From an uncultured Acidimicrobiales bacterium (GTDB lineage Bacteria; Actinomycetota; Acidimicrobiia; Acidimicrobiales; SZUA-35): DNA of 64,000 nucleotides. Both the position numbers and the translations under genes were made by a program. This document shows, in pieces, positions 2,241 through 54,341 of the stretch (position 1 is its first letter; each line of letters starts with the position of its first letter). Under the pieces are notes generated by a model. It saw only the letters and a program-made list of their open reading frames with translations. It ran no database searches and had not been told where the DNA came from. Location of the stretch: contig CALAJV010000014.1 of assembly GCA_937922805.1 (NCBI GenBank), positions 1 to 64,000 of the forward strand, written 5' to 3'.

Positions 2241-5200
2241 TTAGTTGCTCGACGCTTGATCAGCGCAGGCTGCCTTAGGATTGCTCGTGTAATAGCGAAC
2301 CGTAGTTTGCAAAACACTTTGGAAATCGTAGGTGTTTCGGGCACCGCTAAGGTCTCTGGCTAATCGAGTATTAGCGGCGGTTACTTCGGAGTTCGTGCAT
2401 CCCTGCAGAAACGAAGCAACAATTTGGAGGCCCTGCGTTGCCATGTAGTTACTGACGACGTTGGCCCGCCTGTCGTTGTCATAGCTGTTGGATACGTACA
2501 GGAAGAGCAAGTTCCCAAACTGGGTCACTCCGGCAGAAGGCGCCGCACCATCGGCGGTCAAGGCCGAGACAAACTGAGTCCTCGAGTACTGACCGGCCAG
2601 TCTAGACAAGTACTTCTCAAGCTCAAGTTCTAGATTCTCAACCGATTTGCTGTTCTGAACAACCTTTAGAACTTCGTAACTTACCTTTTGGAACAGCGCC
2701 TCTCGACCGCCCTCAGCGGTAACGAACCGTTGTCCGGCTGATGCCTCGATCTTTGGCAAAACGTTACGGAAGAAGAAATTCTGAAGGTCCGATGCCTCAG
2801 CGCCGGCTAATCCAGAGGCATAGCCGGCAAGAACCAACAAGGCTTTCCCTACCTCGGCCCATTGTGGGCTCAGATGCTCTCCGATTCGTGCGTTGACGCT
2901 ACCGGCTACATCTTCGCCGATGTAGTTCAAGGCATACGCCTCGGCGGCGTCTCCCAGAACGTTCCACTTTCCTGGATTTTTGAGAGCGGCGGTCAGTATT
3001 TCTTCTACAAGTCCCCCGACGAATTCTGACACATTCTCTAGCGCTGCTAGCTTGGCGCCGAGCCCATTCAGTTGATGACCAACGAAGTTGGCGAACAGCC
3101 TCTCACCTAACGTGCCTCCACCTTCGCTGAAGAGATTTGATTCCATTACCGACAGCGCTATCCGTTGACCGGTAGTAAGTGTTCCCAGGCTTTTGAAGTG
3201 TCCGATTCCACCGGTTATTCCACCGGTCAAAGCCCCTTCCAGAGCTTCTTTGACGTCGCCGGTGGCGATGAACGTGGCTGCGCCGCTCGAAGTGGCACCG
3301 ATAATGACTTTGGAACCGAGGCTCAAAGTAGGTGCTGCCACACTGGATGCTCCGGCAGCTCCCGCCGTTCCACTTGCGACACTTGGGGTTGCTAGGGCGG
3401 CGCCCATACTCGCACCGATAAGCGCGGCTGCGGCGATAGCCAGCACACCCCGCAAATAGCCCGTGTATCGAGACCTAATAGATTTGCTGGCCATTACGAA
3501 CACTTCTAGGTAAGGGCGGGCCAGATCCCAGACCGCTGGTTCGATGCCATAGGCCCGAGCTCGCTCATGCTCAGTCGAGCTGTTGAAGAGCTCTGAGAAA
3601 GGCGTCGGCGTATGAACATACTCCGGCCCCTCCTCGTCGTTAACGAAGCCGACGACTCTCTTTATCGGATAATAACCCTCCGTGATTGTCTGATACACCT
3701 CGCGAATCGTTTCGTTGTTGTTCTCGCCTATGAGGCCCTTAGCTACATGCTTTGAATAGGCTTTTAGTGAGTTGGTCTCGCCAGACCCTGGCTCTCGGTC
3801 GCCGATCCGGTTCAACAAGGTTTTCAAATTCTGAGCGTGAGCAACGACGTATTCGCTCCGTACCTCTTCGGAATTCTTGAAGGCCAAAATATTCAAGAAC
3901 GGCGACTCAAGGCCATACTCCGGCAACTGAACGCCAACGTTGACCCCTCGAAGCGGCGTCGCTATTCGACTTAGCAACGTATCGGCTAGCAAAACAGAGG
4001 TCTGCCCGGCCAACTCAGCATCGGTCAACCCGAAGCCGGTTCCGCCAAGAGCTCGCAATTCGTTGTTGAAATCAATGACAACTTGACGCAACTGAGCGGT
4101 TTCTTGTTCCCGTAGCGAGTAGACGATCTGCAACTTCGACGCCAATCGCTCGACATCGGTTCCCGTGGTACCAAGCAGTTCCGCGAGGGCATCGACATAC
4201 AATGCCGGGATTTCCACGCTGCTCGCTGGCAAATTACTGTCGGCAGGGTCGACTTCTCCGTCGGCACTCGCCGGTCCGTCACCTTGATCCGTGACTGCAA
4301 TCAGCGAGGAAGGAGCGATAAGTACGACGGGCGACTCTTCACCTCGGATCTGTACGCCATCGCGAGTGGTAATCGCCACCACTGAATAAGCGACATCAAC
4401 ATCGTCTTGCAGGAACCGGGTCGAAGTGTCGGTGAATGTGCGCCCTGGATACGTTAGGCCTACGTCGAACGTCGGTTCTTCGACCAGCATCGGCCGGCCA
4501 TCAGTGCCCTGGAGAAATACTCCGTTTCGTTTGATCTGGTAGCCGTCAATGTAGCCCTGTTCCCAACCCGGAGGAGCGTTCCAGTTCAACTGGATACCTC
4601 CGTTTTCGACCTGACTGGCGGAAACGCCAGTCACCATGTCTGCGGTGATCGACGTTGGCACTGGCACGACGGGCTGCGACTGCACAGAGAGATTTGGGCC
4701 AAACGTTCGAGGAGTTGATACGGAGTCTGCGCTGTCAAAGAACGGAGTGATCGTGTAGGTGTAGCTCTTCCCGGCTTCTACGTCAGCGTCGTAAAAGAAC
4801 GGAATAGGAACGAGGCCTTGGTCAACGCCATCGCGATCAACCCGATAGCCCGACGGGTTCGGACCTTCATTGGCCGGAGCCCAAACGACGACAAGCTCAA
4901 GCCGGAATTCCGTTTGTGCCACGCCAAGGTTTAGGACCGGACGGGCTGCACCGCCGGGATAAATCTCGTTGCTGGTTTCAGCGGCGACAATTTCCACTTC
5001 CTGATCTGAGCCGAATGAGTTCAAGTGACCTTGAGCTGGATCAAAGAAAAATCCAACAGTGACGGGCGCTCCGTTGACTGGCCGAGCGCCAGAGTTGTCG
5101 GCTGCGTATACCGTATACCGGTGGTTCTGACCGGACACGAAGCCGAGATCTAGGTACGTGTTGACGGCTCCGGGGCTGACCGATGCTAGGTAAACGTCGT

Positions 5201-7451
5201 CACGCAATACGTCGTAGCGGGTTGGCGAACCATACAACGGAGCGTCCCATTCGACTAAGCCTGCTCCTACCGAGGTGGCACCGGCTCCCTGGCGAACGCT
5301 GTGTGAGACTCGAAGGTTCTGGACGATGCCAAGCCCAGTTGGGCTGGCAGAGCCCTCAGCTATTGGAGGCCCTCGGACAACGTTGCACCAGCGACCACCC
5401 TGGCGACCCTGCTCGAACCCGGCTTCGACCCAAGCAGCTACTGTGCATGGCTCGTCAGTCGCTGGCGAAAAGTTCAGTACAAGGCAGGCCATTGCATGCT
5501 CACTTGCCTGTTCGTCGCCTTCGATCACGGTTCCACCACCAGCCAGCGTTGCTTTACATAGTGGCAGGTCGCTATTGGCCGGAAGTTGAACAACGACAAC
5601 GTCGCTGTCTACTCCGTCAACGACGGCCGCCTCCGTCGAAGGGTCTTCGACATCGCTAGCAGCGGCCGGGACAGGGGTCGTCATTGCTACGGCAGTATCA
5701 CCGGTGCCGCGGACAACCTCGCACATTTGTCCGCCGACTTCACCGTGGGTAAAGCCAGCCTTTTCCCACGACTCGATGCTGCAAGCGGGTAGCCCGCCGA
5801 TTTCAACAATTGGCTCCGCCTTGCACGACATGTTGTTTTCCCAACCGAATCCGCCGTTGTCGTTGGCGAGGCAGAACGGATGATCACCAGGGCCTGCGAT
5901 TGGGGCTATAAGTTCTCCGCCGCCAGAATCAGAACCTCCGCTATTCGAAATGCCCTCAGCTTCCTTAGCCCGACATGACCTTGCGTTTTCCCAACCGAAC
6001 GCCCCAACGACGTCTGCCACACAGATCGGGTGCTCGGCCGTTGCAGTAGGCGGAGTTGCGAGAGCCGGGTCGACTCCCGCAACTTCCTCAACCGAATTTC
6101 CAACAACCAAATCAACCAGAGCGTCGGCTGGGTCCACCGCAACATCAGCCGGCTCGACCGGAGAGTCGGCTACCTCGATTGGCACCTCGACCAGATCGGT
6201 ACCTGCCTCGACCGGAGTGTCGGCTACCTCGATTGGCACCTCGACCAGATCGGTAGCTGCCTCGACCGGCACAACCGGTTCATCAACCGAAGCATCAATC
6301 ACCTCGACCGGCACAACCGGTTCATCAACGGAATCAACAGAAGCCTGTTCGGCTTCTATCGAATTGTCCGAAGGTGCTTCAGCGGGAATTTCTCGTTCTA
6401 CTACCCGACAAGATTCGCCGTTTTCCCATCCGAACCCGTCGCCATCAGGATCAGAGCCAGCTATTTGGCATTCCTGTTCAACTGCGCTGACCAGCGAATC
6501 ATCTTGACAAAGGTCCAGATCGCTAACCAAGAAACCGCCGTTGAGGCTCGTGATCAGATCGCTTAGCAACTGGGCCACGTTGAACCCGATTGAACCCTGA
6601 TTTGAGCTAAAACCGAGGTGGATATTTTGAGCCAACTGCCCGCTAACCGCGCCCAGCTGCTCACCGCAATCGGCCAACGGCTCCAACTGGCCGTCAACTC
6701 GCCACATAACCGAATCAATTCGGTCCCGAGCTCCGTCCGAAACGACCGCTGCTTCGATCACCAAGCCGGTTGCGTCGATTAAAGGCTCGAAAATCGCAAA
6801 CCTGGCCTCGCCTAAACGGGCCAATACCTGTTCTTCGAACGCCGCAACCTGGCGTTCACGTTCAGAAACGTTGGGTTCAGCCTCCACGTCGGCAACAACT
6901 ACTTCTGGCTCGGGGGCCTCGATTGGCTGTTCAACTTGATGATCAGCCTGCTCAACTTGGTCATCACTAGCCCCGCTGGTTGGAGCCGTCACTCGACACG
7001 ACGCGCCGTTCTCCCAGCCGAAACCATCACCGTCCGGATCGGATCCGGCATCCTGACAATCAGGTGTTCCCGCACTACTCGGCCGCTCTTGCCCTGGAGC
7101 TTCACCCGAATTGTTCTCCCCCACATTCGAAGAATCGGTAGTCGACTCGATGGCTGGATCGGCGACCACTTCATTGGAAACTTGGTCGCTTGCATCGCCG
7201 ACCTGGCAAGTTTCGCCATTCTCCCAACCCCAACCATCTCCATCAGGGTCGGAGCTAGCAGAGACACACGCAACCGCTGCGTCTGTCGGCGTATGGTCGA
7301 CCGCGACCAGAACAGCCGACGTCACCAACAACACAGAAAACACCGAAATCGCCCGAAGCATGCCCGGACGGTAGGTACCCGCCGACCACAGCCGATCTAG
7401 ACCCAAATTCCGGGCCCGGCCCGCACCCATACAACTAGGCGAAAAACGCAT
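2241..7451 (-). CDS. Giant exported protein with repeated GWENG cysteine modules, Fn3 domains and hydrophobic C-terminal region
   Basis: 1,736 residues, ATG start. Residues 31-60 form a basic-hydrophobic export signal (FSVLLVTSAVLVAV). Five short modules follow, each ending in (F/W)GWEN-x-x-(S/T)C, near residues 62-82, 132-152, 328-348, 477-493 and 527-543; the first three contain DPDGDG, which looks able to bind calcium. The GWGWEN..SC core resembles the conserved core of CBM10 carbohydrate-binding modules, but the rest of that family is not obvious. Two further Cys modules have the pattern W-x-x-A-G-F-x-x-G...GG-x-x-C near 557-577 and 669-689. A Val/Glu/Pro repeat region spans about 378-445. 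Fibronectin type III-like domains occupy about 708-1045. The C-terminal third includes a Gly/Ala-rich hydrophobic stretch (1333-1420) with GGITGGIG, reminiscent of pre-toxin or membrane-insertion regions of polymorphic toxins. No catalytic motif is recognised. It is paralogous to the next gene upstream. Confidence 0.85.
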   Translation of the reverse strand: MRFSPSCMGAGRARNLGLDRLWSAGTYRPGMLRAISVFSVLLVTSAVLVAVDHTPTDAAVACVSASSDPDGDGWGWENGETCQVGDASDQVSNEVVADPAIESTTDSSNVGENNSGEAPGQERPSSAGTPDCQDAGSDPDGDGFGWENGASCRVTAPTSGASDDQVEQADHQVEQPIEAPEPEVVVADVEAEPNVSERERQVAAFEEQVLARLGEARFAIFEPLIDATGLVIEAAVVSDGARDRIDSVMWRVDGQLEPLADCGEQLGAVSGQLAQNIHLGFSSNQGSIGFNVAQLLSDLITSLNGGFLVSDLDLCQDDSLVSAVEQECQIAGSDPDGDGFGWENGESCRVVEREIPAEAPSDNSIEAEQASVDSVDEPVVPVEVIDASVDEPVVPVEAATDLVEVPIEVADTPVEAGTDLVEVPIEVADSPVEPADVAVDPADALVDLVVGNSVEEVAGVDPALATPPTATAEHPICVADVVGAFGWENARSCRAKEAEGISNSGGSDSGGGELIAPIAGPGDHPFCLANDNGGFGWENNMSCKAEPIVEIGGLPACSIESWEKAGFTHGEVGGQMCEVVRGTGDTAVAMTTPVPAAASDVEDPSTEAAVVDGVDSDVVVVQLPANSDLPLCKATLAGGGTVIEGDEQASEHAMACLVLNFSPATDEPCTVAAWVEAGFEQGRQGGRWCNVVRGPPIAEGSASPTGLGIVQNLRVSHSVRQGAGATSVGAGLVEWDAPLYGSPTRYDVLRDDVYLASVSPGAVNTYLDLGFVSGQNHRYTVYAADNSGARPVNGAPVTVGFFFDPAQGHLNSFGSDQEVEIVAAETSNEIYPGGAARPVLNLGVAQTEFRLELVVVWAPANEGPNPSGYRVDRDGVDQGLVPIPFFYDADVEAGKSYTYTITPFFDSADSVSTPRTFGPNLSVQSQPVVPVPTSITADMVTGVSASQVENGGIQLNWNAPPGWEQGYIDGYQIKRNGVFLQGTDGRPMLVEEPTFDVGLTYPGRTFTDTSTRFLQDDVDVAYSVVAITTRDGVQIRGEESPVVLIAPSSLIAVTDQGDGPASADGEVDPADSNLPASSVEIPALYVDALAELLGTTGTDVERLASKLQIVYSLREQETAQLRQVVIDFNNELRALGGTGFGLTDAELAGQTSVLLADTLLSRIATPLRGVNVGVQLPEYGLESPFLNILAFKNSEEVRSEYVVAHAQNLKTLLNRIGDREPGSGETNSLKAYSKHVAKGLIGENNNETIREVYQTITEGYYPIKRVVGFVNDEEGPEYVHTPTPFSELFNSSTEHERARAYGIEPAVWDLARPYLEVFVMASKSIRSRYTGYLRGVLAIAAAALIGASMGAALATPSVASGTAGAAGASSVAAPTLSLGSKVIIGATSSGAATFIATGDVKEALEGALTGGITGGIGHFKSLGTLTTGQRIALSVMESNLFSEGGGTLGERLFANFVGHQLNGLGAKLAALENVSEFVGGLVEEILTAALKNPGKWNVLGDAAEAYALNYIGEDVAGSVNARIGEHLSPQWAEVGKALLVLAGYASGLAGAEASDLQNFFFRNVLPKIEASAGQRFVTAEGGREALFQKVSYEVLKVVQNSKSVENLELELEKYLSRLAGQYSRTQFVSALTADGAAPSAGVTQFGNLLFLYVSNSYDNDRRANVVSNYMATQGLQIVASFLQGCTNSEVTAANTRLARDLSGARNTYDFQSVLQTTVRYYTSNPKAACADQASSN
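6154..6261. repeat. 54-bp direct repeat, two copies, followed by a shorter repeat pair
   Basis: Copies at 6154-6207 and 6208-6261 differ at only a few positions. They encode the DLVEVPIEVAD-x-PVEA repeat of the giant protein. Just beyond, a 26-base segment beginning tcgaccggcacaaccgg occurs twice (starting at 6262 and about 6304). All units preserve frame. Confidence 0.8.
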
Positions 7452-7710
7452 CGATTATTCATTCTCCCCTGGCGACATATGTTGTCACCGCACAAAGACC
7501 CACCTAGAACGACCAATCTCGTCGCTGTCGCTTAACCAGATACACGACATTTTCACCACTTTCGATACCGATTTGGGCGAAATTTTTGATGTTGCCCGCC
7601 CCAACCAATCCCGATCACAGATCCCGATACAGAAACCAATCACAGGCACAGAACGGGGTGCTATTGAATTCAAACATCCCGACCGTGAGCGGGCTTGGTC
7701 TGCAACCCAG

Positions 7711-10700
7711 CTACAGACCAGCGTTCCATTCCTCGGCGAGCGCAAATACGTACCGCTCGACGCTTCGGTCGACCGTGTCCATCGTCCCACCACTCATTCG
7801 AACGGCGGCAACGATATCCAAAATTGTTTGGCCGACGTTGGCGTACAACTCTTCTGGTGATCCGTACCGCTCGATGAAGGCACCACCGTGAGTGAACTCC
7901 AGCTTGGGAATCACTTGGTCGAAGAAGAACCGCTTGGCCGTTGCTTCGCCCCCGTCAGACGAGGCCACGACTCGGGCGAACCCGGCGAGTGTTTGTCCGA
8001 GCTCTACCCACTGACGGCTGAGTCCGTCGCCGCTAAATCCTGATAGCTCGCTTCCGATGATCTGAACGAGGAAAGCGTCGGTATCAACCAAGATCTTTTC
8101 CCAGTCGCCGCCGTTGGCCACGGCCGATATTCGAATCACTTCTAGAAGCCGAAGGGCGAACGGTGATGCATTTTCGATAGCGATTATCCGGGCGCCAAGC
8201 CCTTCAAGATATTGTCCGTCAAACACGTCAGAAAGACTCTGTTCAAACGATTCGTTCCCGTCTAAATGTCGTGACAATAGAAGAGCCTTGACAATCGCTC
8301 GCCCCGCTGGCAGCCCCTCAATGCCGGACAAGAATCTGAGGCCGCTGGCGGCGCCACCACTAATTCCGCCCAGGAACGCTGCCTCCCAATCACCTTCGGT
8401 TATGAACAGCGTCGATGCGGTGCCGCCCACCGCACCGCCGACAATGGCGTATGCAGCCGTACCTTCGGCCAAGCCCAGCGCCCCGGCTACAGCCGGACCG
8501 AACTGCGTAGCTAGAACAACGGCAAATCCGAGCTTGACTAGGTTGAATAGGTGGCCTCGGAATCTTCCCCACCCGTAGTTGTCGTCGCGAAAGTTCTCTA
8601 CCCCGACGTAAAGTTCCAGGAACGGCCGCGCTAGGCCCCAGGTTCCAGGGTTAATGCCGTACGCCTGTGCTCGTTCGTCCTCCGACGATGCGTTGAATAG
8701 TCGGGAAAATGCGTTTGGCGCTGGCACATTACGCATCTCGCTGCCGATATCGCCAACATCAACCCGCTGGCGAGTGGTCGGTGTATAGCCGTCGACGATA
8801 TTGCGGTACATCGCTCGCATCTCGACCGCCCGCGTGCCGGTTGCATCCAGCAACAGTCGAGCCACATTTAGCGCTGCGTACTCGATTTCTTTCACTTGGC
8901 CTTTCGGCGGCCTCGACCCTTGGGTGATTCGTTCCAGCTCGGCCCGACGGTCGTGCAGCATTGTCATGTGCTGAACCATCATGTCGGTTTTTTCTTGAAT
9001 CGATTCGCCGTTTGAACGAAGGGTGTTGAGGAACGGCGATGACATTCCGTAGCCTTCGATCAGTACGCCAACGTTGGTTCCTTGATTGGCGGCAGAGATT
9101 CTACGCAAAAGCTCATCAGCAGCTTCAGCCGCTGGAAGCTGGGCTAGTTCTTCATCGGTGAATCCAAGCGCCGCACCGGGCGAAGATCGAACGCCTCGGT
9201 TGAAGGTATAGACCAGATGGTCTTGAAACTCAGCTGTGCCCCTTAGGGTGTGCAGCAAATACAGTTGAGATCCGAGTCGTTCAGCGTCAACTCCTGATAC
9301 GCCCAAAGCAGACGTGACCGCATCGATGAATCGCTGTGGTATCTCTTGAACGGTCGCTCCTGGGGTGGCCGTGACCGGTTCTTGCAGCTCCAGCCCAGTG
9401 CCGGTATCTGTCGTCTGACCAACCGGATCGGTTTCAATTGGTGAGATAACCAGCAGCGGAGAAGCCTCGCCGTACACCCGCTCACCAGACCGGGTGGTAA
9501 CGGGGATTATGGAGTATCCGTATGTTTCGCCTGCTTCGGTCATCGTGTCGAGATATGACCGCTGTTGGTATGGCAATTCTCCAGCAGCGGCAAAGTCCGG
9601 CTCATTGATCGTAGAAATCATCGTGCCGTTCCGGCTAATCACGTATTCGTCAATTAGGCCTTGGGCCCAGCCAACTGGGGCGTTCCAGCTGATCTCGACT
9701 TGGGTTGTCCCTGGCCGTTGTTCAACTGTTACGCCCGACACCGCACTCGACGTAATCGACTCGGGTACCGGCAGGATCGGCTCCGACTGCGTCGACAATC
9801 CAAGACCGTCGACTCGCGTCGCGCTGCCGTCGGCAGCGGTAGCCAAGATAAACGGCGAGACTGTATAGGTGTAGTGTTTGCCCACTTCAACGTTGTTGTC
9901 GTAGTAATACGGGATATCTACTAGCGCCACTACTCGGTCATCGCGAATTATTTGATAGCCGGTTGGGGCTGGCCCATCAGTGGGAACATCCCACGCCGCT
10001 ACTAGTTCAACCTCAAACTCCGTTTGACTGATCCGAAGGTTCCGAATCGGCCGCAACGTGCGATCGTCAAACCCGTCGTCTACATTTCGGGCCGCTTCCC
10101 GGTCAGCGTCTTGGTTGGGGCCAAACTCGTTGAGATGGCCCTGGTCTGGATCGAAGAAGAAAGAGGTGGTCGTTGGAGCACCGTTGATAAGCGTTGCCCC
10201 TGAATCATCCACCGCTGAAACGGTGTAGTAGTGAGTTCGCCCCGACACAAAGCCGAGATCCAGATACGAGTTCACTGCTCCTGGTGTGACCGAAGCGATG
10301 AACTGTCCATCGCGAAGGACGTCATATCTGGTCGGTGAACCTCCCAATGGGGCATCCCACTCAACCAGGCCAGCACCCCAGGAGTAGATCGAGTAGCCCT
10401 GGCGAATAACGTGTTCGACCTTTAGATTCTGGACAACGCCAAGTCCGCTATCGGCCGCCGGAGGAGGGCCACGAACGACGTTGCACCAGCGTCCGCCCTG
10501 CCGACCCTGCTCAAACCCGGTTGCGACCCAAGATGCAACCGTACAAACCTGGCCTGTTTGCGGTGAGAAGTTCAAGACAAGACACACCATGCCTTGCTCG
10601 AACGACGTCTCATCGGCGGCGTTTTCGGTCGATCCGCTCAAGTCAACCGTACCCGAGCCCGAGCCACCGTTCGCACCGCTGTTGCTAGCGGCAGCGTGCA

Positions 10701-13089
10701 TACAGAGAGGGAGGTCGCCCGGAACACCAACTTCTACAATCTGATCTCGAAGCTCTTCGGTTGATGTTGTCGCACCGGTTGGCTCCGGTTCCGGTAGCTG
10801 CAGATCGCCACTAACTATGGCCGACACCGCGTCGATACCTCTTCGTATCGGACCTCGATAGTTAGCCGGGCGAGTCACTACACACCACTGGTTGTTAATA
10901 AATCCATAGGGGAAACCTTTGTCATACCATTCGAGCACTGGGCACTGCAGGCTTGGTTCTTGCGCAAAGTCGCTGATCAAGGCCAGACAGGTCCGACCAC
11001 CTTCAAAGCCGAGACCACCAGATCGGTCGCTGGCGCACACTGGCAAATCACCACGCGCCGCATCGGGTTCAAGTTCGGTACCGCTAGCGTCGGTCTCCGC
11101 CTCGCTACTCGTTGCGGCGCTGTCCTGAAGGTCGTTGTTCGTCGTTTCGGTGGCGGTAGTTTGCAGAGCCGTCGAGTCGAGGCTTTCTACCTCGACTTCA
11201 TTGTCATCGAGACTTATTGGTGCAGAGTTGTCAGATTCGGGGGCTGCCTCCTGGGACGCTCCACTCAGCGTTTCCACATCACTAGGTTCGGGGACCGAAG
11301 CGACAGCGCACGAACTACCGCCAACCTTCCCGTAGACGAAACCAGCATCAATCCATTCTTCAACCGGACAAGTCGAGGTAACGGTCAGGGGCAAAGCGTC
11401 GGCCAGGCACGACATGTTTTGTTCCCAACCAAACCCTCCAGAACGATCACTCAGGCAGAAGGGATATTCGCCGACGTTAGCTATCGTCGCTTCGCCAGCA
11501 ACACCTGAATCTGAGGCTGACTTTTCGCGGTTGCCACCAACGCCACTTGACGCAGTTACTTCCGCTCCCCCGTTGGCCACCGTTTCAACGATTGCCGGCA
11601 CAGCGACATCAACCGACGGCTCAACCACATCAACCAACGGCTTAACCACATCAACCAACGGCTCAACAAGATCAACCAACGGCTCAGCCGAATCAACCGA
11701 CGATTGAACTACATCAACCGAAACCTCAGCCGAATCAACCGACGGCTCAACAACATCAACCAACGGCTCAGCCGGATCAGGATCCTGATTAGGGTCGGCC
11801 TGGCTGGGTGGGTTGTCGAGGGTCGTGTTCGTTTCTTCTACCTCAACGTCTTGTTCGGCAGCGGTGCTCAGATCTGCGACCGAACCACGTTGATCTGACG
11901 TCGCCTGCCCACCGGCTGATTCTTCAGGTGCCAGATCAGCTGAGACATCGACGCCTGGAGTGACGACTCGACATGTTGCGTTGCTTTCCCAGCCGAATCC
12001 GTCGCCGTCGGGATCAATGGCGAGATCGGTGCAATTCGGATAGTCGGTCGCCGATTCGGCGGCACAAACATCTCGGTTGGCAGCAATCTTGCCGTCGCCG
12101 CCAAGTCCCGCTGTCGTTAGGTCGCCGACCATGTCAGCAACCGCCTCGCCGATTGAACTTGAATCCTTGTCGTAGCGTGCAACGAGTCGCTCGGCAAACA
12201 GCTCGCTAACGACAACAGCATGCTCATCGCAAACAGATATGTTTCTGAGCTGGCCTTCAAGTCGCCATAAGACAGAAGCGACTCGGGTGCTATCGCCGTT
12301 CGAGACAACCGCAGCGTCAACAACAAGGCCGACTGCATCGATCAGTGTTTCATAACGATCAAGCTCATCTTGGTCTAGCCGAACATCCAAGCGGTCGGTG
12401 AATTGTGTCGCTTGCCGTTGCCGTTCCGTCTCTGGCGACTCGACTAGCTGCGACTCTGGTGTCTGCTGGTCGGCCGATTGGGCTTCTGAAGGTTGGCCGT
12501 TTTCAACAGGCACACTTGGTTGTGCGTCTGGTTGGTCAGCCTGCTCACTGCCGGGAACCACACGGCAAGTCGTGTTGTTCTCCCAACCGAACCCATCACC
12601 ATCAGGATCTAGACCGGCTGAGGAACAGTCAGGGGTACCCGAGATATTCGGCTTGTTCGACTCTCCCTCGGCTCCGCTTTCGGTTGTATCAACGCCTGGT
12701 TGAGCATTTGGTTCATTCGGGACGCTTTCGTTCGGAGCGGCTCCGTCGACGCTTCCAACTTGATCAGACGGTGCGCTGGCTGCAGTAGCGTTTGGTTGCT
12801 GAGCGTGCCCGTCGTCGATGACCTTACATGTCACCCCGTCTTCCCATCCCCATCCATCACCGTCAGGATCAGACGCTGAAGATCGGCACTCTATTGCTGC
12901 TTCCGATGGCGACGTCTCGACTGTGACTAGGACCGCCGACGTAACTAGAAACACGGCCAGCACGCTGACGACCCGAGCTAGGCCAACGTTGGCCACCAAC
13001 GCTCGCGCCCGATTTGCGACCGATCTCTTGAGAACAGCAAAAAGTAGTTCAGCCGAACCCAAAGTCGCTGCACAGCGGTTCTTTTCCAC
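7711..13089 (-). CDS. Giant exported protein, paralogue of the downstream GWENG/Fn3 protein
   Basis: 1,792 residues from a GTG start preceded by GGTGGGA. An export signal lies at about 40-60 (LAVFLVTSAVLVTV, nearly identical to the paralogue). GWE-type Cys modules occur near residues 68-88, 155-175, 353-373, 545-561 and 685-701; the last is degenerate (GGLGFEGG). The second Cys module type occurs near 574-594, 716-736 and 849-869. A Val/Asp/Pro repeat (EPLVDVVEPSVDSAE) occupies about 441-500. Fibronectin III-like domains follow from about 883 to 1220. A helical region with AQAYGINPGTWGLARPF matches the paralogue, followed by a Gly/Ala hydrophobic stretch near 1515-1590 (AIVGGAVGG, GGISGGAASG). 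Conservation of layout with divergence in the N-terminal linkers suggests an old tandem duplication. Function is unknown; a cell-surface adhesin or toxin-delivery stalk is an inference only. It ends 259 bases before the next gene. Confidence 0.85.
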   Translation of the reverse strand: MEKNRCAATLGSAELLFAVLKRSVANRARALVANVGLARVVSVLAVFLVTSAVLVTVETSPSEAAIECRSSASDPDGDGWGWEDGVTCKVIDDGHAQQPNATAASAPSDQVGSVDGAAPNESVPNEPNAQPGVDTTESGAEGESNKPNISGTPDCSSAGLDPDGDGFGWENNTTCRVVPGSEQADQPDAQPSVPVENGQPSEAQSADQQTPESQLVESPETERQRQATQFTDRLDVRLDQDELDRYETLIDAVGLVVDAAVVSNGDSTRVASVLWRLEGQLRNISVCDEHAVVVSELFAERLVARYDKDSSSIGEAVADMVGDLTTAGLGGDGKIAANRDVCAAESATDYPNCTDLAIDPDGDGFGWESNATCRVVTPGVDVSADLAPEESAGGQATSDQRGSVADLSTAAEQDVEVEETNTTLDNPPSQADPNQDPDPAEPLVDVVEPSVDSAEVSVDVVQSSVDSAEPLVDLVEPLVDVVKPLVDVVEPSVDVAVPAIVETVANGGAEVTASSGVGGNREKSASDSGVAGEATIANVGEYPFCLSDRSGGFGWEQNMSCLADALPLTVTSTCPVEEWIDAGFVYGKVGGSSCAVASVPEPSDVETLSGASQEAAPESDNSAPISLDDNEVEVESLDSTALQTTATETTNNDLQDSAATSSEAETDASGTELEPDAARGDLPVCASDRSGGLGFEGGRTCLALISDFAQEPSLQCPVLEWYDKGFPYGFINNQWCVVTRPANYRGPIRRGIDAVSAIVSGDLQLPEPEPTGATTSTEELRDQIVEVGVPGDLPLCMHAAASNSGANGGSGSGTVDLSGSTENAADETSFEQGMVCLVLNFSPQTGQVCTVASWVATGFEQGRQGGRWCNVVRGPPPAADSGLGVVQNLKVEHVIRQGYSIYSWGAGLVEWDAPLGGSPTRYDVLRDGQFIASVTPGAVNSYLDLGFVSGRTHYYTVSAVDDSGATLINGAPTTTSFFFDPDQGHLNEFGPNQDADREAARNVDDGFDDRTLRPIRNLRISQTEFEVELVAAWDVPTDGPAPTGYQIIRDDRVVALVDIPYYYDNNVEVGKHYTYTVSPFILATAADGSATRVDGLGLSTQSEPILPVPESITSSAVSGVTVEQRPGTTQVEISWNAPVGWAQGLIDEYVISRNGTMISTINEPDFAAAGELPYQQRSYLDTMTEAGETYGYSIIPVTTRSGERVYGEASPLLVISPIETDPVGQTTDTGTGLELQEPVTATPGATVQEIPQRFIDAVTSALGVSGVDAERLGSQLYLLHTLRGTAEFQDHLVYTFNRGVRSSPGAALGFTDEELAQLPAAEAADELLRRISAANQGTNVGVLIEGYGMSSPFLNTLRSNGESIQEKTDMMVQHMTMLHDRRAELERITQGSRPPKGQVKEIEYAALNVARLLLDATGTRAVEMRAMYRNIVDGYTPTTRQRVDVGDIGSEMRNVPAPNAFSRLFNASSEDERAQAYGINPGTWGLARPFLELYVGVENFRDDNYGWGRFRGHLFNLVKLGFAVVLATQFGPAVAGALGLAEGTAAYAIVGGAVGGTASTLFITEGDWEAAFLGGISGGAASGLRFLSGIEGLPAGRAIVKALLLSRHLDGNESFEQSLSDVFDGQYLEGLGARIIAIENASPFALRLLEVIRISAVANGGDWEKILVDTDAFLVQIIGSELSGFSGDGLSRQWVELGQTLAGFARVVASSDGGEATAKRFFFDQVIPKLEFTHGGAFIERYGSPEELYANVGQTILDIVAAVRMSGGTMDTVDRSVERYVFALAEEWNAGL
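11606..11773. repeat. 21-bp in-frame tandem repeat, eight copies
   Basis: Eight 21-base units start at 11606 and every 21 bases after, of the form acatcaaccaacggctcaac with substitutions. They encode the seven-residue unit (V/A)EPLVDV in the giant minus-strand gene. Internal copies are nearly identical at DNA level, so slippage or recombination could change length without a frameshift. Confidence 0.85.
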
Positions 13090-47715: not shown

Positions 47716-50643
47716 GTGTTCAAGTTAGACGAGACTGCGTTTTGCGAAAGCCAACGTGGTCATGTGGCGGGTGTTGCGTTGAGCGGGCAAGTTTCAAACA
47801 GAAACTCTGAGAACACTGAAAGTCTCAGTTGGGAAGAACCTCGAGAGGCGATTAGCTTCGCCGACTCGATCGCCGGGAAGATAACCTTGCGGTCGCTGCT
47901 ACTCGCAGCGACGCCAGTTCTTATCGTAGGACTGTTAACGATCATCAGTCTTTTCCTACTCTCTCGAAGTGCGGGAAATAACCTGGACGAGAGTCGGACT
48001 GAACTGGTTCAGTCGGCGGTGGGTGAACGGCGAGCCGAGCAAGCCGATCTTGTATTGGACAAGATGGATTCTTATATCGCCGAACGGGTAAACGACGTAA
48101 TTGACTGGAGTCGAACGACTGAGGTCCGAGCAGCGGCGACAGCGAACTACCCTGCGATCGAAGATCTCGAAGGTCTCTCCATTGACGAAATCGAAGCTCG
48201 GTTTGATGCTCGACGATCGCTCGACGTCGATGGCTCAACTGCTGTGTTTCTTCAACAGCAAATCCAAGGCCGGCTGGTCGAAGACGACACCCCGGAGCTT
48301 ACTGACAACAGACTAATCTACGCCGAAGTCTTATTCACCGAGGCAAACGGCTACATCGTCGGTGCTACCGGTCTTACCTCCGACTTTGTACAGAGCGATG
48401 AGGAATGGTGGCAGATCGCCTGGGAGCAAGGGATCTTCATCGATCAGCTTGCTTTCGATGAGTCAGCTAATGCCAACTCGTTCGACGTTTCGGTTCGAAT
48501 CGACGATAATCGTGGCCAACCCATTGGAGTTATGAAGGTCTCGATCGACGCTTCGGTACTTCAGGTCTTCGCTGACGATTTCGCCCGAGACGACGTTGAG
48601 GTTCGGGTAGTAAGCAGCAGCGGCCTCATCTTGGCCGATACCGCTAGCGACCACCAATTAGTAGGTGAAGATGCCAGCATCTCTGCCATTTTCCAGAACG
48701 AGCAGGCCATAGCCTTCAACACTGCTAAAGAGAGCCTTGATTCTTCAGGCTTCCTATCCTACGAGAACACAGTGTTTGGGTTCTCTAAAACATCCGACAC
48801 TCGCCGAATCGAACGGCTCGGTCTCGATGTCGAGAATCAGTCCTGGCTGTCGTTCGTAGAACAACCGTCAGAATCAGCGTTCCGACCACTCGACGGCCTG
48901 GCTGATGTACAGAACGAACTCAATTTCTCAACCCTGTTCCTGACACTCGTTATCGGCGGCCTTATTATCATCACGTTGTTGCTCGCCTACCTCGTCTCGA
49001 GGCTGGTAGCTAACCGTATCGCTGGGCCGATCAATGACTTGAGGGCTGAAGCTAACTGGGTTGCCGACTACCAGCTGCCTGAATTGGTAAGCGTTCTCCA
49101 GGATCCGACTACGAACACCATTCCAGCGGTCGAACCGATTGATGTCGGCACTGGCGGCGAGGTTGGAGAATTGGCGTCCGCGTTTAACGCGGTTCGGTCG
49201 ACTGCTATCGAACTCGCGGGCAACCAAGCCATCGGTCGAAGTCGTGACGTTGCTGGAATCTTGATGAACTTGGGCCGCCGTAACCAGCAGCTCATCGGTC
49301 GCCAGCTGCAATTTATCGATCAGTTGGAACAAAGCGAGTCTGATCCCGACACGCTTCGTAACTTGTTCTTGTTAGACCAGATGACCACCAGGATGCGTCG
49401 AAATGCCGAAAGTCTTTTGGTTCTAGCCGGTGAGGATTCACCTCGTCGAGGTACAGCACCACTGGCCATCGAGGACGTAATCCGTGCTGCTTCGGGCGAA
49501 GTTGAAGACTACGCTCGAGTCCAAATCGACTCAGTCGAATCGGTCATGGTTCGACCTGACGTTGTCAGCGACCTTACTCACCTTCTGGCCGAACTTATCG
49601 AGAACGCCGCCAGCTTCTCGCCTCCAGATACCGACGTTGAGATCGTCGGTAGCCAGGGATTCGACGGCTCCTACACCATCTCAATCGTTGACCATGGTGT
49701 CGGCATGACCCGAGAGAAAATGGAAGAGGCCAACCGACGTTTAGCTTCGCCAAGCTTTAGCGAAGGCGTTTCAACATCGTTCCTTGGCTTGTTCGTAGTC
49801 GGCCGACTTGCCGGACGACATGGCATTAACGCTCGGCTAGTGGAATCTGCCACGAGCGGTATCACCGCTAAGATCGGGCTTCCAGCCTCGTGCATGGCTA
49901 ACGAGACTGGCGATAACGCAGGCTTCCTCGATCGCCAGCTGGCACCAGTTGGGGCTTTGCCAGCAGCACCGCAAGAACTTTCGGCTGGCACAACCGGACA
50001 AATGCAACAACTAGCGCCACCTCCGGCACAGTTCACCCCTCCGAGCGAACCAGCCTCTTACCCGCCTCCACAACCATATTCTCCGCCCGCTCCAGCCGAG
50101 CCCGGAGTTCCTATCGGGTTCGATGATCTCGGACTAGATCCTTTGCCGGTCGAGGTCGGGGAAAACGAAGTACCTCTTCCTCAAACCGAAGTGCGCCGAC
50201 CGGGTGCTCAGACCCCAGGCTCGTTGCCTGGCGGAATCAACCTGCAAACCCCGTACGGAGGGGCGCCAGCTACTGGTGACGCCGACACCGGCGACACTAA
50301 CTTTGACGCTCATGCAGATGGCGGCGTTCCATCAGTACTGCCTGCGAGTCCGACTCCGGCCGCTGCTCCAAGCACAGCTGTCGCAGAACTGCCAGCTGAT
50401 CTGGATGGCGGCGATGTACCGATCCCACCATTCGAAAAACGGGAGTCAAAAGCCCCCGTTGCGGGTGAGACCGTTACTTGGGTAGCGGGCGACAAAGACG
50501 AAGCAGATCGACATACCGCTGTCGGTGATGATGCCAGCCCTGAAGAAGTTGAAGACAAAGCAGAACGGGCCCGAACGTTGCTAAATTCGTTCACCCGTGG
50601 GCAAAAACAGGCAATCAATGGCAGCCCTGAGGAAACGGAATAG
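47716..50643 (+). CDS. Conservon sensor histidine kinase-like protein (CvnA type), phospho-acceptor histidine missing
   Basis: 975 residues from a GTG. Membrane helices at about 58-83 and 405-428 flank an extracytoplasmic dCACHE-like sensor (86-404); HAMP follows (429-500). A helical DHp-like region contains NLGRRNQQLIGRQ and LDQMTTRMRRNAESLLVLAG (553-572), then an HATPase domain with N box HLLAELIENAASFSPP (622-637) and G box DHGVGM. In related CvnA proteins the first motif reads LDHxxTRM; here the His is Gln555, and no other His occurs between HAMP and the N box. The C-terminal 250 residues are Pro-rich. It is the first gene of a four-gene operon with roadblock, DUF742 and GTPase. Some authors call these nitrate/nitrite-type kinases by similarity; no ligand is implied. 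Confidence 0.93.
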   Translation: MFKLDETAFCESQRGHVAGVALSGQVSNRNSENTESLSWEEPREAISFADSIAGKITLRSLLLAATPVLIVGLLTIISLFLLSRSAGNNLDESRTELVQSAVGERRAEQADLVLDKMDSYIAERVNDVIDWSRTTEVRAAATANYPAIEDLEGLSIDEIEARFDARRSLDVDGSTAVFLQQQIQGRLVEDDTPELTDNRLIYAEVLFTEANGYIVGATGLTSDFVQSDEEWWQIAWEQGIFIDQLAFDESANANSFDVSVRIDDNRGQPIGVMKVSIDASVLQVFADDFARDDVEVRVVSSSGLILADTASDHQLVGEDASISAIFQNEQAIAFNTAKESLDSSGFLSYENTVFGFSKTSDTRRIERLGLDVENQSWLSFVEQPSESAFRPLDGLADVQNELNFSTLFLTLVIGGLIIITLLLAYLVSRLVANRIAGPINDLRAEANWVADYQLPELVSVLQDPTTNTIPAVEPIDVGTGGEVGELASAFNAVRSTAIELAGNQAIGRSRDVAGILMNLGRRNQQLIGRQLQFIDQLEQSESDPDTLRNLFLLDQMTTRMRRNAESLLVLAGEDSPRRGTAPLAIEDVIRAASGEVEDYARVQIDSVESVMVRPDVVSDLTHLLAELIENAASFSPPDTDVEIVGSQGFDGSYTISIVDHGVGMTREKMEEANRRLASPSFSEGVSTSFLGLFVVGRLAGRHGINARLVESATSGITAKIGLPASCMANETGDNAGFLDRQLAPVGALPAAPQELSAGTTGQMQQLAPPPAQFTPPSEPASYPPPQPYSPPAPAEPGVPIGFDDLGLDPLPVEVGENEVPLPQTEVRRPGAQTPGSLPGGINLQTPYGGAPATGDADTGDTNFDAHADGGVPSVLPASPTPAAAPSTAVAELPADLDGGDVPIPPFEKRESKAPVAGETVTWVAGDKDEADRHTAVGDDASPEEVEDKAERARTLLNSFTRGQKQAINGSPEETE

Positions 50644-50646
50644 TTT

Positions 50647-51096
50647 ATGACCAACACAAACAATAATGGCGGGTTAGGTCGGAGCGCATCTGAACTCAGT
50701 TGGCTCCTAGGTAGCTTCGCCGAACGGACAGTTGGCGTTTCTGAAGCCGTCGCCGTGAGCGCGGACGGCTTCTTGCTGGCGGCTTCGGTCGGCAGACACC
50801 GAGAAGGCGTGGAGCAATTCGCTGCGATCGTCTCGGGTTTAACCAGCTTGACCTTCGGAGCTGCTGAGCTCTTTGGGCTCGGGAGCGTTAACCAGCTCAT
50901 CGTCGAAATGGACCAAGGCTATTTCTTCGTGATGTCGGTGAACGGAGGATCGATCGTCGGCGTTCTCGCCGAAGCCGATTGTGATGTCGGTTTGATCGGT
51001 TATGAAATGACCTTATTGATTCAACGAGTGGGAACTGTATTGACGCCGGCACTCATCGATGAGCTAAAGAACTCGATTAGTGGCCGCGCCAGTTAG
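50647..51096 (+). CDS. Roadblock/LC7 domain protein (CvnB type)
   Basis: 149 residues. The roadblock/LC7 fold is seen in AVAVSADGFLLAAS, followed by the central helix EQFAAIVSGLTSLTFGAA and the strands LIVEMDQGYFFVMSV and GVLAEADCDVGLIGYEM. In conservons this protein binds the GTPase and acts as a GAP-like or scaffold partner. It starts 3 bases after the kinase stop, so it is cotranslated. Confidence 0.93.
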   Translation: MTNTNNNGGLGRSASELSWLLGSFAERTVGVSEAVAVSADGFLLAASVGRHREGVEQFAAIVSGLTSLTFGAAELFGLGSVNQLIVEMDQGYFFVMSVNGGSIVGVLAEADCDVGLIGYEMTLLIQRVGTVLTPALIDELKNSISGRAS

Positions 51097-51107
51097 GAAT
51101 CAGCGCT

Positions 51108-51500
51108 ATGTCGGACAAATATCCAGACGGCTATGCGACCCAGGGTCGCAGATCAGAAGACAATAAGAGCCCGGATGATAGTGGTGCCGGCTTGTTGCGG
51201 CCCTATATCATCACCGGTGGCCGAACTGAGGCTGCCAACTCGGATCTTTCGATCGAGTCTGTAATTCAAACCAAAGACGGATTCGCCGGTCTCGGCTTTG
51301 AAAAACGCGCAATCGCCAAGCATTGCGCCGAACCGAAGTCGATCGGTGAGATAGCGGCTCATCTCAAGGTGCCGCTCGGAGTTGCTGTCGTGCTTGTTTC
51401 AGACATGTTGGCAGAAGGCCTAGTAATCGCCCACAAACGGGCTAGCGCGAACGACACAGGATTAATCGAACGGCTCATCGAGGGGATTCGAGCAATATGA
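51108..51500 (+). CDS. DUF742 protein (CvnC type)
   Basis: 130 residues. The DUF742 hallmark is LLRPYIITGGRT, followed by a winged-helix-like region (EPKSIGEIAAHLKVPLGVAVVLVSDMLAEGLV). The function in conservons is unclear; it probably joins the GTPase complex at the membrane. It overlaps the next gene by 4 bases (ATGA). Confidence 0.93.
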   Translation: MSDKYPDGYATQGRRSEDNKSPDDSGAGLLRPYIITGGRTEAANSDLSIESVIQTKDGFAGLGFEKRAIAKHCAEPKSIGEIAAHLKVPLGVAVVLVSDMLAEGLVIAHKRASANDTGLIERLIEGIRAI

Positions 51501-52057
51501 CCGCACTACAACATCCCGAGGTTCCGCCGCAGTCGGCCAAAATCGTTATCTCTGGCGGGTTCGGTGTGGGTAAAACCACGCTGGTAGACACCATCTCAGA
51601 AATCACGCCAGTTCGCACTGAAGCAAACATGACTGCCGCCAGCATCGGTCACGACGACCGACAGCATCTGCCCGACAAGAACAAAACCACTGTTGCTTTG
51701 GACTTCGGCCGAGTAACAATCGACGAAACTCTTCGCCTCTACCTATTTGGTACCCCAGGCCAAGATCGCTTCGGTTTCATGTGGGACTATTTGGTGAACG
51801 GCGCATTGGGCGCAGTCATCTTGGCTGACACTCGACGCTTGTCTGATTGCTATCCCGCTATCGACTACTACGAGAGCCGCCGAATTCCGTTCATTGTTGC
51901 CATTAACCAGTTTGAAGGTAGCCCTCAGCACCGGCTCGATCAGGTTCGAATGGCCCTCAACATTCCTGGACGCATTCCAGTGGTCAGATTTGACGCTCGC
52001 GATCGGGACGTATCGAAAGAGGTTCTGATCGAGCTTCTTTCTCTGCTACTTCGCTGA
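51497..52057 (+). CDS. Small GTPase-like ATP/GTP-binding protein (CvnD type)
   Basis: 186 residues. Walker A motif GGFGVGKTTLVD, a switch region with TVALDFGRV, the G3-like motif FGTPGQDRFGFMWDYL, and a G4 position reading NQFEG in place of NKxD, as common in this MglA-like family. It likely cycles with the roadblock partner to relay the signal from the kinase-like protein. No cytochrome P450 gene (cvnE) follows. Confidence 0.93.
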   Translation: MTALQHPEVPPQSAKIVISGGFGVGKTTLVDTISEITPVRTEANMTAASIGHDDRQHLPDKNKTTVALDFGRVTIDETLRLYLFGTPGQDRFGFMWDYLVNGALGAVILADTRRLSDCYPAIDYYESRRIPFIVAINQFEGSPQHRLDQVRMALNIPGRIPVVRFDARDRDVSKEVLIELLSLLLR

Positions 52058-52100: not shown

Positions 52101-53126
52101 CTAATCTTCGGCTGTCCGAATGCTAGTCAAGACGGGTTCGAGCCTGGCGTCTCGATAGGACTGGGCTACTTGAGCCAGCTGAAGAAACGCTTGGCCCCCT
52201 TCCTCACCCCATTGACGACCATAGACTTCGCACAATTTCAGCTGGGCGTACCTTTTATATATCTCGCGTACGCTGGCGCCTTTGTCGGTCAGATCCCATC
52301 GAGGGCGTCCTTTTGACGACGGGATCTTGGTTACCCATCCCCGCTCTGACGCCCGGTCGAGGACCGACAGTACAACTTGTCGAGTTAGTACTGAGTTCAA
52401 CTTGCAAATTGTGGCCACGTTGAGGCCGCTTTGAATATCGCGGTGGCGGGCGAACCCAATAGCGTCCATCACCCTACGATCACTCATGCCGACTCCCATC
52501 GGCGCGGTTTCTCGTACAATCAAATCGCTCAGGTAGAAGTGCACGCTGCGAAGTGCTTGCCAATTTGTTGTGGTTAATTCGGTCGCTCGACTCTGACCGA
52601 TGTAGTCAAGAATGGGAATGACTCGGTCGTTCATAAAGGCCAAAGCGCTTCGGCCGATGTCGAAAAGTACATCCCGAAGATCTTCGCCGGCTTCGCCGTA
52701 GAGTCGCTGAATTACCTGCTCGGCGATCTGTCCATACAGCGATCGAACTTGTCGCCCTGAGTCAGTGAGTTGCCATTGCTGTCGTTTTGATCCGTCGCTG
52801 TCCGCCTTCGATATGACCCAAGATTGTTCTACCATTCGTTGCAGCGTTGAAAGTGCAGTCGAGTGTTTCATTGGTGCCTGAACAATGGCACAAAGAACTG
52901 ACGTTCCGACCCAATCTCGGCCGCTCTCTTCGGCGTATCCAAGAGCGTCCAATAGTCGCCTTTCCAAAACACCGACCCCGATCTGTTCTGTTTCCCGCAG
53001 AATCAGATCGCCGGTGTAAAAGTTGACTCGACGCAACACAACCCAAACGTTGTCGTCATCGGTAGTGTCGACTTTGAAGTGATCGTCAACAGATCTTGGA
53101 TCATACGGATTCGCCTTTGAGTCCAT
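52101..53126 (-). CDS. Duplicated winged-helix regulator-like protein
   Basis: 341 residues from the ATG at 53126. Two halves repeat each other: WVVLRRVNFYTGDLILRETE with GVLERRLLDALGYA at the start, and WQALRSVHFYLSDLIVRETA with GMSDRRVMDAIGFA in the second half. Each is followed by a wHTH-like segment (QRMVEQSWVISKADSDGSKR and RASERGWVTKIPSSKGRPR with W-x-LTD). This fits a tandem duplication of a MarR/PadR-type domain with an extra conserved N-terminal motif. It is convergent with the conservon, sharing only a 43-base gap, and is followed by a further regulator gene 21 bases upstream on its strand. Confidence 0.75.
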   Translation of the reverse strand: MDSKANPYDPRSVDDHFKVDTTDDDNVWVVLRRVNFYTGDLILRETEQIGVGVLERRLLDALGYAEESGRDWVGTSVLCAIVQAPMKHSTALSTLQRMVEQSWVISKADSDGSKRQQWQLTDSGRQVRSLYGQIAEQVIQRLYGEAGEDLRDVLFDIGRSALAFMNDRVIPILDYIGQSRATELTTTNWQALRSVHFYLSDLIVRETAPMGVGMSDRRVMDAIGFARHRDIQSGLNVATICKLNSVLTRQVVLSVLDRASERGWVTKIPSSKGRPRWDLTDKGASVREIYKRYAQLKLCEVYGRQWGEEGGQAFLQLAQVAQSYRDARLEPVLTSIRTAED

Positions 53127-53147
53127 TTTTTCCCTCATAGTTTCGCT

Positions 53148-53906
53148 CTATTTCTGTTCCTCAACCCAGGGTTCCAAGTGCTGGTAGTAAGCCCGGATGA
53201 ACGACCGATGCTCGGTTACGAACCGAACGAAATCAGCGGCCCGAAATCTCTGTGACTCGTTGGCCCCTGATGGCAACAAGCCCCCGTCAAAGGCCAATCG
53301 ACCAACTTTCGACATCCGGTTCTTGGTAGTACCTTCGGCTAGACCCAATTTGCGGGCCAACTGGCTCCAGGTGCTCCAATCTCGATCGGTGGCCGCCAAG
53401 AACAACAGCTCGGTCAGTGAGGGGTCATCCATCAACTGCCCCAGGTCCATCGAGGCCCCGTTTAACAGCAGCGGTTCGGGTATCGCTCCGGTGGTTCGGA
53501 AGAGATCGCCCGATTGGCGGGCAGCCCGATCGACTTGTTCAACGATTTGTCTGGCGTGGCAGTTTGGCCGCGGATAGTGAATAAGGATTCGTCGATGACA
53601 GTGTCCGTCTAATGCGTGCTTGATCCACATCGCATGAGAACGGCCCTGGGCGGTTCCGATTGCGACTATCAACGTGGTGGGCGGCACGAAGCCGCTAACT
53701 AAACATGGGCCTTCGATCCGACCGTTGCCTTCTTGCAACGGCCCGATTACGACTACATCGGGGAACGGGGCTTTAGGAAGGTGGTCGGGATTCGAGTAGT
53801 ACTCGATCTGGTGACCTCGTGCCTGGTGCTCCCCTCGATATGCGCCTAATGCCAAGTCCATATTTGGACCGACATAGCCGACTCGGATCGGGGGCAACCG
53901 TGACAT
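53148..53906 (-). CDS. Receiver-like/HTH regulatory protein
   Basis: 252 residues from the ATG at 53906, set by AAAGGAAGTC. The first half (PIRVGYVGPNMDLALGAY... PDVVVIGPLQEGNG) has a Rossmann-like alternation similar to a response-regulator receiver but without a clear phosphorylation Asp. The second half contains a helix-turn-helix (TWSQLARKLGLAEGTTKNRM) like that of LuxR/NarL or sigma-region-4 proteins. It precedes the duplicated wHTH gene (22-base gap) and the two probably form an operon. No DNA target is known. Confidence 0.7.
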   Translation of the reverse strand: MSRLPPIRVGYVGPNMDLALGAYRGEHQARGHQIEYYSNPDHLPKAPFPDVVVIGPLQEGNGRIEGPCLVSGFVPPTTLIVAIGTAQGRSHAMWIKHALDGHCHRRILIHYPRPNCHARQIVEQVDRAARQSGDLFRTTGAIPEPLLLNGASMDLGQLMDDPSLTELLFLAATDRDWSTWSQLARKLGLAEGTTKNRMSKVGRLAFDGGLLPSGANESQRFRAADFVRFVTEHRSFIRAYYQHLEPWVEEQK

Positions 53907-54341
53907 GACTTCCTTTCTATGAAATCTGTTGTGGATCTCGTGATGATGGTTATCTCGTAGTTCGTCTGCTTTAACTTGTTGATTTTGAACTTGTTGATCT
54001 GAATTTCTGGTGTCGCCCAGGCCTAAGTGTTGTCGAAGTCGATGGAACTGTCGAATCAGTTTCATCACTGATCATTGAAATTGTTGATCTTTTTGGGTGA
54101 ATAGATCCGTTCGAAAATAACTACTGTCATCTGACAGGTGTCATCTGTCATCTGTCATTCGGCGCTGAAACACGGTTGATTTGGACACCTGACAGGCGAT
54201 CGGCGTAACAACGGATTCGATTACGATCTATACGAACCGACCCCGGTTTTTGGTTCAGAATTGGTGTATGAAATTTGAAGACCACCACCGGGAAGCGCTA
54301 TTCGACCGAGGAGCCGCGACGACAACAGCTTGGCCAGCCCC
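53907..54341. other. AT-rich intergenic region with repeats between divergent genes
   Basis: About 430 bases upstream of the regulator gene. It holds repeats of aacttgttgat near 53980-54000 and a TGTCA cluster (54125-54196). An in-frame N-terminal extension of the regulator to 54068 exists but is Gln/His-rich without similarity. A short frame at 54268-54351 is not supported. Confidence 0.55.
54125..54196. repeat. Cluster of TGTCA-type repeats, putative operator
   Basis: TGTCATCTGACA (54125-54136) is an inverted repeat of TGTCA around two bases; further TGTCATC/TGTCATT copies follow at about 54140, 54147 and 54154, and TGACAGG recurs at 54132 and 54190. The density is far above chance in this non-coding region and suggests a binding site for one of the adjacent regulators. 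Confidence 0.55.

Follow-up and report, generated by a model that had tools for sequence, protein, structure and literature searches.

A conservon sensor kinase homologue without a histidine in its DHp helices in an uncultured Acidimicrobiales bacterium

The 64,000-nucleotide stretch of contig CALAJV010000014.1 analysed here (the window) encodes a complete conservon whose sensor, CvnA, has no histidine in its DHp helices. In actinobacteria, it is mainly conservons that connect kinase-like sensors with Ras-like GTPases. Natural CvnAs that lack the histidine and have intact ATP-site residues are ready-made tests of the need for histidine phosphorylation. The sequences show that the window protein keeps its ATP-site residues and its operon, its Asn-type relatives evolve under purifying selection, and the missing histidine has been replaced repeatedly by Gln or Asn in the family. 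We infer ATP binding, conformational coupling, and a role for the residue on alpha2. On balance, we lean slightly towards a CvnA that binds ATP, has no phospho-acceptor, and acts conformationally on its roadblock, DUF742, and GTPase partners, with the alpha2 histidine of its relatives serving in hydrogen bonding and not as an acceptor.

A complete conservon with an unusual sensor

The conservon occupies positions 47716-52057 of the + strand, with HATPase_c, Robl_LC7, DUF742, and GTPase matches in the order cvnA-B-C-D. Residues of CvnA are numbered from the GTG at 47716.

47716..50643, + strand: cvnA, membrane sensor kinase homologue, 975 aa from GTG (other starts possible)
49240..49335, + strand: DHp helix alpha1, residues 509-540 (AlphaFold2 model, mean pLDDT 88.9)
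49279..49281, + strand: Arg522, invariant (191/191 CvnAs)
49285..49287, + strand: Gln524, at the column of the CvnA8 acceptor His183 (PMC13343842)
49297..49299, + strand: Gly528, at the column of the LxHRQ histidine
49345..49425, + strand: DHp helix alpha2, residues 544-570 (AlphaFold2 model)
49378..49380, + strand: Gln555 in LDQMTTRM, in place of the near-invariant alpha2 histidine
49567..49884, + strand: HATPase_c domain, residues 618-723 (PF02518, 43.4 bits against a cut-off of 26.4)
50647..51096, + strand: cvnB, roadblock/LC7 protein (PF03259, 5.9e-14)
51108..51500, + strand: cvnC, DUF742 protein (PF05331, 3.5e-22)
51497..52057, + strand: cvnD, small GTPase with P-loop GGFGVGKTT (PF03029, 2.2e-24)
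52101-53138, - strand: next gene after cvnD, weak PadR/MarR-like matches, no GAF match

CvnA consists of a Cache-like region, HAMP, DHp, HATPase_c, and a long Pro-rich C-tail. Two hydrophobic segments were recognised by eye, and the profile matches of the extracellular region (to dCache) and of HAMP were weak and below cut-off. Alignments identified a CvnA-type DHp-CA core with the alpha2 signature LDxxxTRMRR. Profile searches gave no receiver domain match in the four operon genes and the next two genes, and no GAF (CvnF) or P450 (CvnE) gene was recognised adjoining the conservon. The two minus-strand genes that follow it (52101-54068) have weak winged-helix matches and are not found beside orthologous conservons; in a comparison of neighbours made in search of a clue to the output, no gene outside A-D kept its place beside them. 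Elsewhere in the window, two minus-strand ORFs (2241-13089) each exceed 1700 aa.

The histidines of the window CvnA are residues 16, 313, 622, 660, 702, 866, and 933; a sequence scan found none in the DHp helices and none between residues 313 and 622, as an earlier note on this DNA had said of the interval from HAMP to the N box. His622, invariant throughout the family, is itself part of the N box (LTHLLAELIENA). The motif LLDQMTTRM starts at residue 552, and the translation confirms the Gln555 reported in that note, encoded by CAG. Two orthologues from other genomes (68% and 59% identical) likewise carry LDQMATRM, so that Gln555 is not a sequencing slip. The note had also described LIGRQ as standing in for LxHRQ: LIGRQ is indeed present from residue 526, but the LxHRQ histidine is not the norm in Acidimicrobiia, where this residue is mostly Asp (LLDRQ). 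Compared with a phosphorelay histidine kinase, the window CvnA has the N and G boxes and lacks both an acceptor histidine in the DHp and a response regulator in its operon. Its membership of the conservons stands despite the absence of the near-invariant LDH histidine, because the alpha2 histidine is no published defining feature, and the protein is a variant within a known system.

Position of the acceptor in CvnA

The only CvnA with demonstrated autophosphorylation is CvnA8 of Streptomyces coelicolor, in which H183A abolished the phospho-shift and most of the ATP turnover (PMC13343842). The TM2-to-histidine distances place this residue nearer to the membrane helices than the LDH motif could be. 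A Streptomyces protein (L238/L266) was equated with CvnA8 on four features and not on the deposited sequence: its length of 505 aa, membrane segments at about 33-80, a GAF gene that follows cvnD, and His183 in LAMREHALVG. Its LAMREHALVG aligns without gaps with LGRRNQQLIG of the window, which pairs His183 with Gln524, and its LDH histidine is present as His214. In its AlphaFold2 model, computed without three plasmid-derived rows, His183 lies on alpha1 and His214 on alpha2. Two candidates for the published acceptor were discarded in this way: the LDH histidine, by the distances and then by the position of His183 on alpha1 of this protein, and the LxHRQ histidine, which the distances had suggested, since His183 lies four residues earlier.

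In structural alignment, the acceptor residues of CpxA, HK853, EnvZ, WalK, RetS, and DivL all fell on alpha1 of the window protein, at residues 520-522; in the CvnA8-type protein, those of HK853, EnvZ, and DivL fell on residue 180. Because these positions were read off at range ends, they could be wrong by a few residues, though not as to the helix. The invariant Arg522 sits, in this alignment, at the slot of the canonical acceptor histidine of ordinary histidine kinases. Structure searches found no close solved structure of a CvnA. Because the His183/Gln524 alignment, the AlphaFold2 helices, and the structural alignment agree, the proven acceptor is placed on alpha1 and Gln555 on alpha2 of the modelled DHp. 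The view of LDHxxTRM as the usual phospho-acceptor, on which the earlier note was based, is not supported by this mapping. That note had counted an alignment placing the true acceptor elsewhere as evidence against itself; the alignment does count against the LDH motif as the usual acceptor and leaves in place the conclusion that the window protein has none.

A CvnA8-type protein of Streptomyces sp. HM190 (L173) keeps His183 and has LDQ for LDH in a core about 99% identical to that of L266, providing a natural, ready-made test of the alpha2 histidine.

Recurrent replacement of the alpha2 histidine

Three DHp columns were compared in 191 CvnA cores, 113 of them from Acidimicrobiia. A histidine was found at column 524 in 5 of the 191, at column 528 (LxHRQ) in 45, none of them from Acidimicrobiia, and at column 555 in 165. 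The column-528 histidine is seen in many Streptomyces and relatives. Twenty cores, the window CvnA included, have none of the three. Among the cores without LDH, five (four Streptomyces and Rhizocola) keep the column-528 histidine alone, and only that of Streptomyces sp. HM190 keeps His183 alone. The result on the CvnA8 acceptor is not simply transferable to the family, since that residue is His in so few of the sampled relatives. As 111/113 Acidimicrobiia cores have no alpha1 histidine at 524 or 528 (58/113 have Asp at 528), what distinguishes the window protein within its class is the further loss of the alpha2 histidine.

A pattern census of 395 Acidimicrobiia genomes that allowed any residue at this column found 60 CvnA sites (56 H, 3 Q, and 1 N), the patterns requiring TRMRR-like codons and missing about one-fifth of known sites (27/33 found). 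Six further matches in the class with residues other than His, Gln, or Asn proved to be no CvnA. A group with LDN[IV]VTRM was found again in five genera (family, 39 genomes). In a tree of 115 cores computed without the trait columns, at least five changes to a residue other than His occurred in Acidimicrobiia, at least four of them forced by well-supported branches; the wider tree of 191 cores, a fast tree, has about 12 changes from His, all to Gln or Asn. A search for the Gln form across 84,980 species added CvnAs from Rhizocola, several Streptomyces, and Paractinoplanes, and Gln counts outside Acidimicrobiia are inflated because the search there targeted this form. The Asn form also occurs in another actinobacterial family (L185), and an ordinary Streptomyces search returned a further Gln form (L254). 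No residue other than Gln or Asn replaced the alpha2 histidine in the sampled CvnAs. With every single-base change of a His codon taken as equally likely, the probability that five unbiased events all gave Gln or Asn is about 0.007, which is no more than suggestive. In Streptomyces sp. CB02400 (L177, 3-7998), two divergent conservons lie back to back, one with an LDH CvnA and one with an LDQ CvnA.

Signs against decay

When columns conserved to at least 85% in 99 His-bearing CvnAs were compared with the 16 Gln/Asn-bearing ones, column 555 alone had changed throughout; D554, R562, H622, E626, N630, D659, G661, G663, N673, G691, and G715 were kept in all 16. The N and G boxes of the window protein are likewise intact (H622, E626, N630, D659, G661, G663, N673, G691, and G715). 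In the window, as in each non-His locus of Acidimicrobiia that is fully covered, the set cvnA-B-C-D is intact; no B-C-D genes were seen near the Paractinoplanes CvnA (L171). Core dN/dS ranged from 0.05 to 0.09 in Asn-type pairs; in His-type paralogues, most of which come from the same genomes, it was 0.045-0.135. These values point to purifying selection on the Asn-type relatives; within the Gln group of the window, divergence or saturation makes the comparisons hardly informative. A decaying or wrongly sequenced cvnA is therefore extremely improbable: the assembly has 39 contigs and is 94% complete, which leaves some room for error, but the LDQ shared with orthologues at 59-68% identity, the intact boxes and operon, and the low dN/dS of the Asn-type relatives rule it out.

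A proposed conformational mechanism and its alternatives

According to the mechanism that we propose, the window gene would encode a working conservon sensor with no DHp histidine to phosphorylate. ATP would be bound by the intact GHKL domain, and a nucleotide- and stimulus-dependent change in the shape of the DHp-CA dimer would probably be the signal. This change would act directly on the partners, of which the roadblock protein is GAP-like and the DUF742 protein GEF-like, and through them on the GTPase. How firmly the partners grip the GTPase most likely depends on the ATP state of the dimer, because CvnA9 has ATPase activity and contacts CvnB9 and CvnC9 (PMC8510531), these interactions depend on kinase and GTPase activity according to a review (PMC4316618), and the mycobacterial homologues of CvnB and CvnC are a GAP and a GEF (PMC9769811; PMC13343842). 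As amides alone take the place of the alpha2 histidine, its role is probably in hydrogen bonding or docking and less likely that of an acceptor. Repeated swaps to Gln and Asn without decay suggest that this group of sensors probably controls the small GTPase by shape and not by phosphate transfer. The non-phosphorelay route through the roadblock-GTPase module suggested in the earlier note is thus the best reading of a protein with no acceptor-like DHp histidine, intact ATP-site residues, and no receiver domain in its operon.

Two observations weigh against an acceptor-less CvnA. CvnA8 demonstrates that at least one CvnA uses histidine chemistry and that losing His183 can cripple the ATPase, and a histidine as strongly conserved as that on alpha2 could also be the acceptor in other CvnAs. 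The main competing explanation, which we consider unlikely, builds on the latter: in most CvnAs, LDHxxTRM on alpha2 would hold the true acceptor, with CvnA8 as the exception, and the window protein would be a pseudokinase from one of several lineages of true loss. The frequency of His555, far above that of any alpha1 histidine, favours it, as do the lack of any other DHp histidine at the three candidate columns in most Acidimicrobiia CvnAs and the choice of the CvnA8 acceptor by its authors as a "highly conserved" histidine (PMC13343842). In CvnA8, however, H183A abolished the phospho-shift, although the CvnA8-type protein retains His214. The motif also lies on alpha2, while known acceptors map to alpha1. 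The acceptor and the N-box Asn of known kinases are about 104-112 residues apart; alpha1 sites 520-524 are 106-110 residues from Asn630, and column 555 is only 75. Replacement by Gln and Asn only, under unrelaxed constraint, likewise speaks against an alpha2 acceptor.

Phosphorylation might instead involve a partner or another residue. The source genome has four conservons by DUF742 count (on C14, C10, C6, and C18), whose CvnAs carry Q (window), N, H, and H at the alpha2 column. Several conservons also occur in relatives, against a published typical count of one per genome in Acidimicrobiales (PMC13343842, PMC13015309). Acceptor-less CvnAs could be halves of heterodimers that transphosphorylate or regulate a His-bearing paralogue of the same cell, as in RetS/GacS, which we regard as quite improbable. 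Besides the two LDH and one LDN paralogues of the window genome, most genomes with a non-His CvnA also have LDH CvnAs, but every non-His CvnA at a fully covered locus of Acidimicrobiia has its own complete operon, and the His-bearing paralogues lack the alpha1 histidine too. An obligatory His-bearing partner is ruled out because one genome, 97% complete (G033), has a single CvnA, of the Gln type. Even less probable is a shift of autophosphorylation to Tyr, Ser, Thr, Asp, or a His outside the DHp: the Asp common at column 528 in Acidimicrobiia would suit it, but the window has Gly there, its core has no conserved replacement histidine, and its remaining conserved histidines (622 and 702) lie in the CA domain and are conserved family-wide or nearly so.

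The conformational reading may extend beyond the window. It is possible, though less likely than not, that most CvnAs are GHKL-ATPase conformational switches for the roadblock/GTPase module, with an alpha2 histidine that docks or hydrogen-bonds and tolerates Gln or Asn, and that histidine autophosphorylation as in CvnA8 is a minority trait.

Comparison with known systems

The window operon shares gene order and domains with conservons (also AGPS; CvnA-D), including Cvn8 and Cvn9 of S. coelicolor and mycobacterial MfpE-D-C-B. It differs from them in a CvnA with none of the histidines that CvnAs carry at three DHp positions, in an extracellular region that is Cache-like and not annotated NIT, in the lack of a recognised adjoining CvnF or CvnE gene, and in the lack of the LPxR motif described for the C-tail of CvnAs. 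This motif is missing from the window CvnA (region 49885-50643) and from both of the LDQ orthologues, and present in all 10 LDN proteins and in 41/95 LDH proteins of the class. With CvnA8, the window protein shares the DHp-CA fold, the LDxxxTRMRR signature, and the ATP-site residues; CvnA8 has histidines on alpha1 (His183) and alpha2 where the window has Gln524 and Gln555, and the fifth, GAF gene (CvnF) of the CvnA8 subfamily is absent from the window operon. Classical HisKA kinases (HK853, CpxA, and EnvZ) have the same DHp-CA architecture, with the acceptor histidine and response regulator that are lacking here. The pseudokinase DivL of Caulobacter is an earlier example of a histidine-kinase fold that functions with no acceptor (PMC4211667). 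Its structure matches the window model with a VIA Z of 15.9 (17.9 for the CvnA8-type model), and in both proteins the canonical acceptor is replaced in a full DHp-CA fold, as judged by model and structural alignment. DivL signals conformationally, as we propose for the window CvnA, but its input is a phosphorylated response regulator and its ATP binding is poor, whereas the window protein has intact N and G boxes and a GTPase module alongside.
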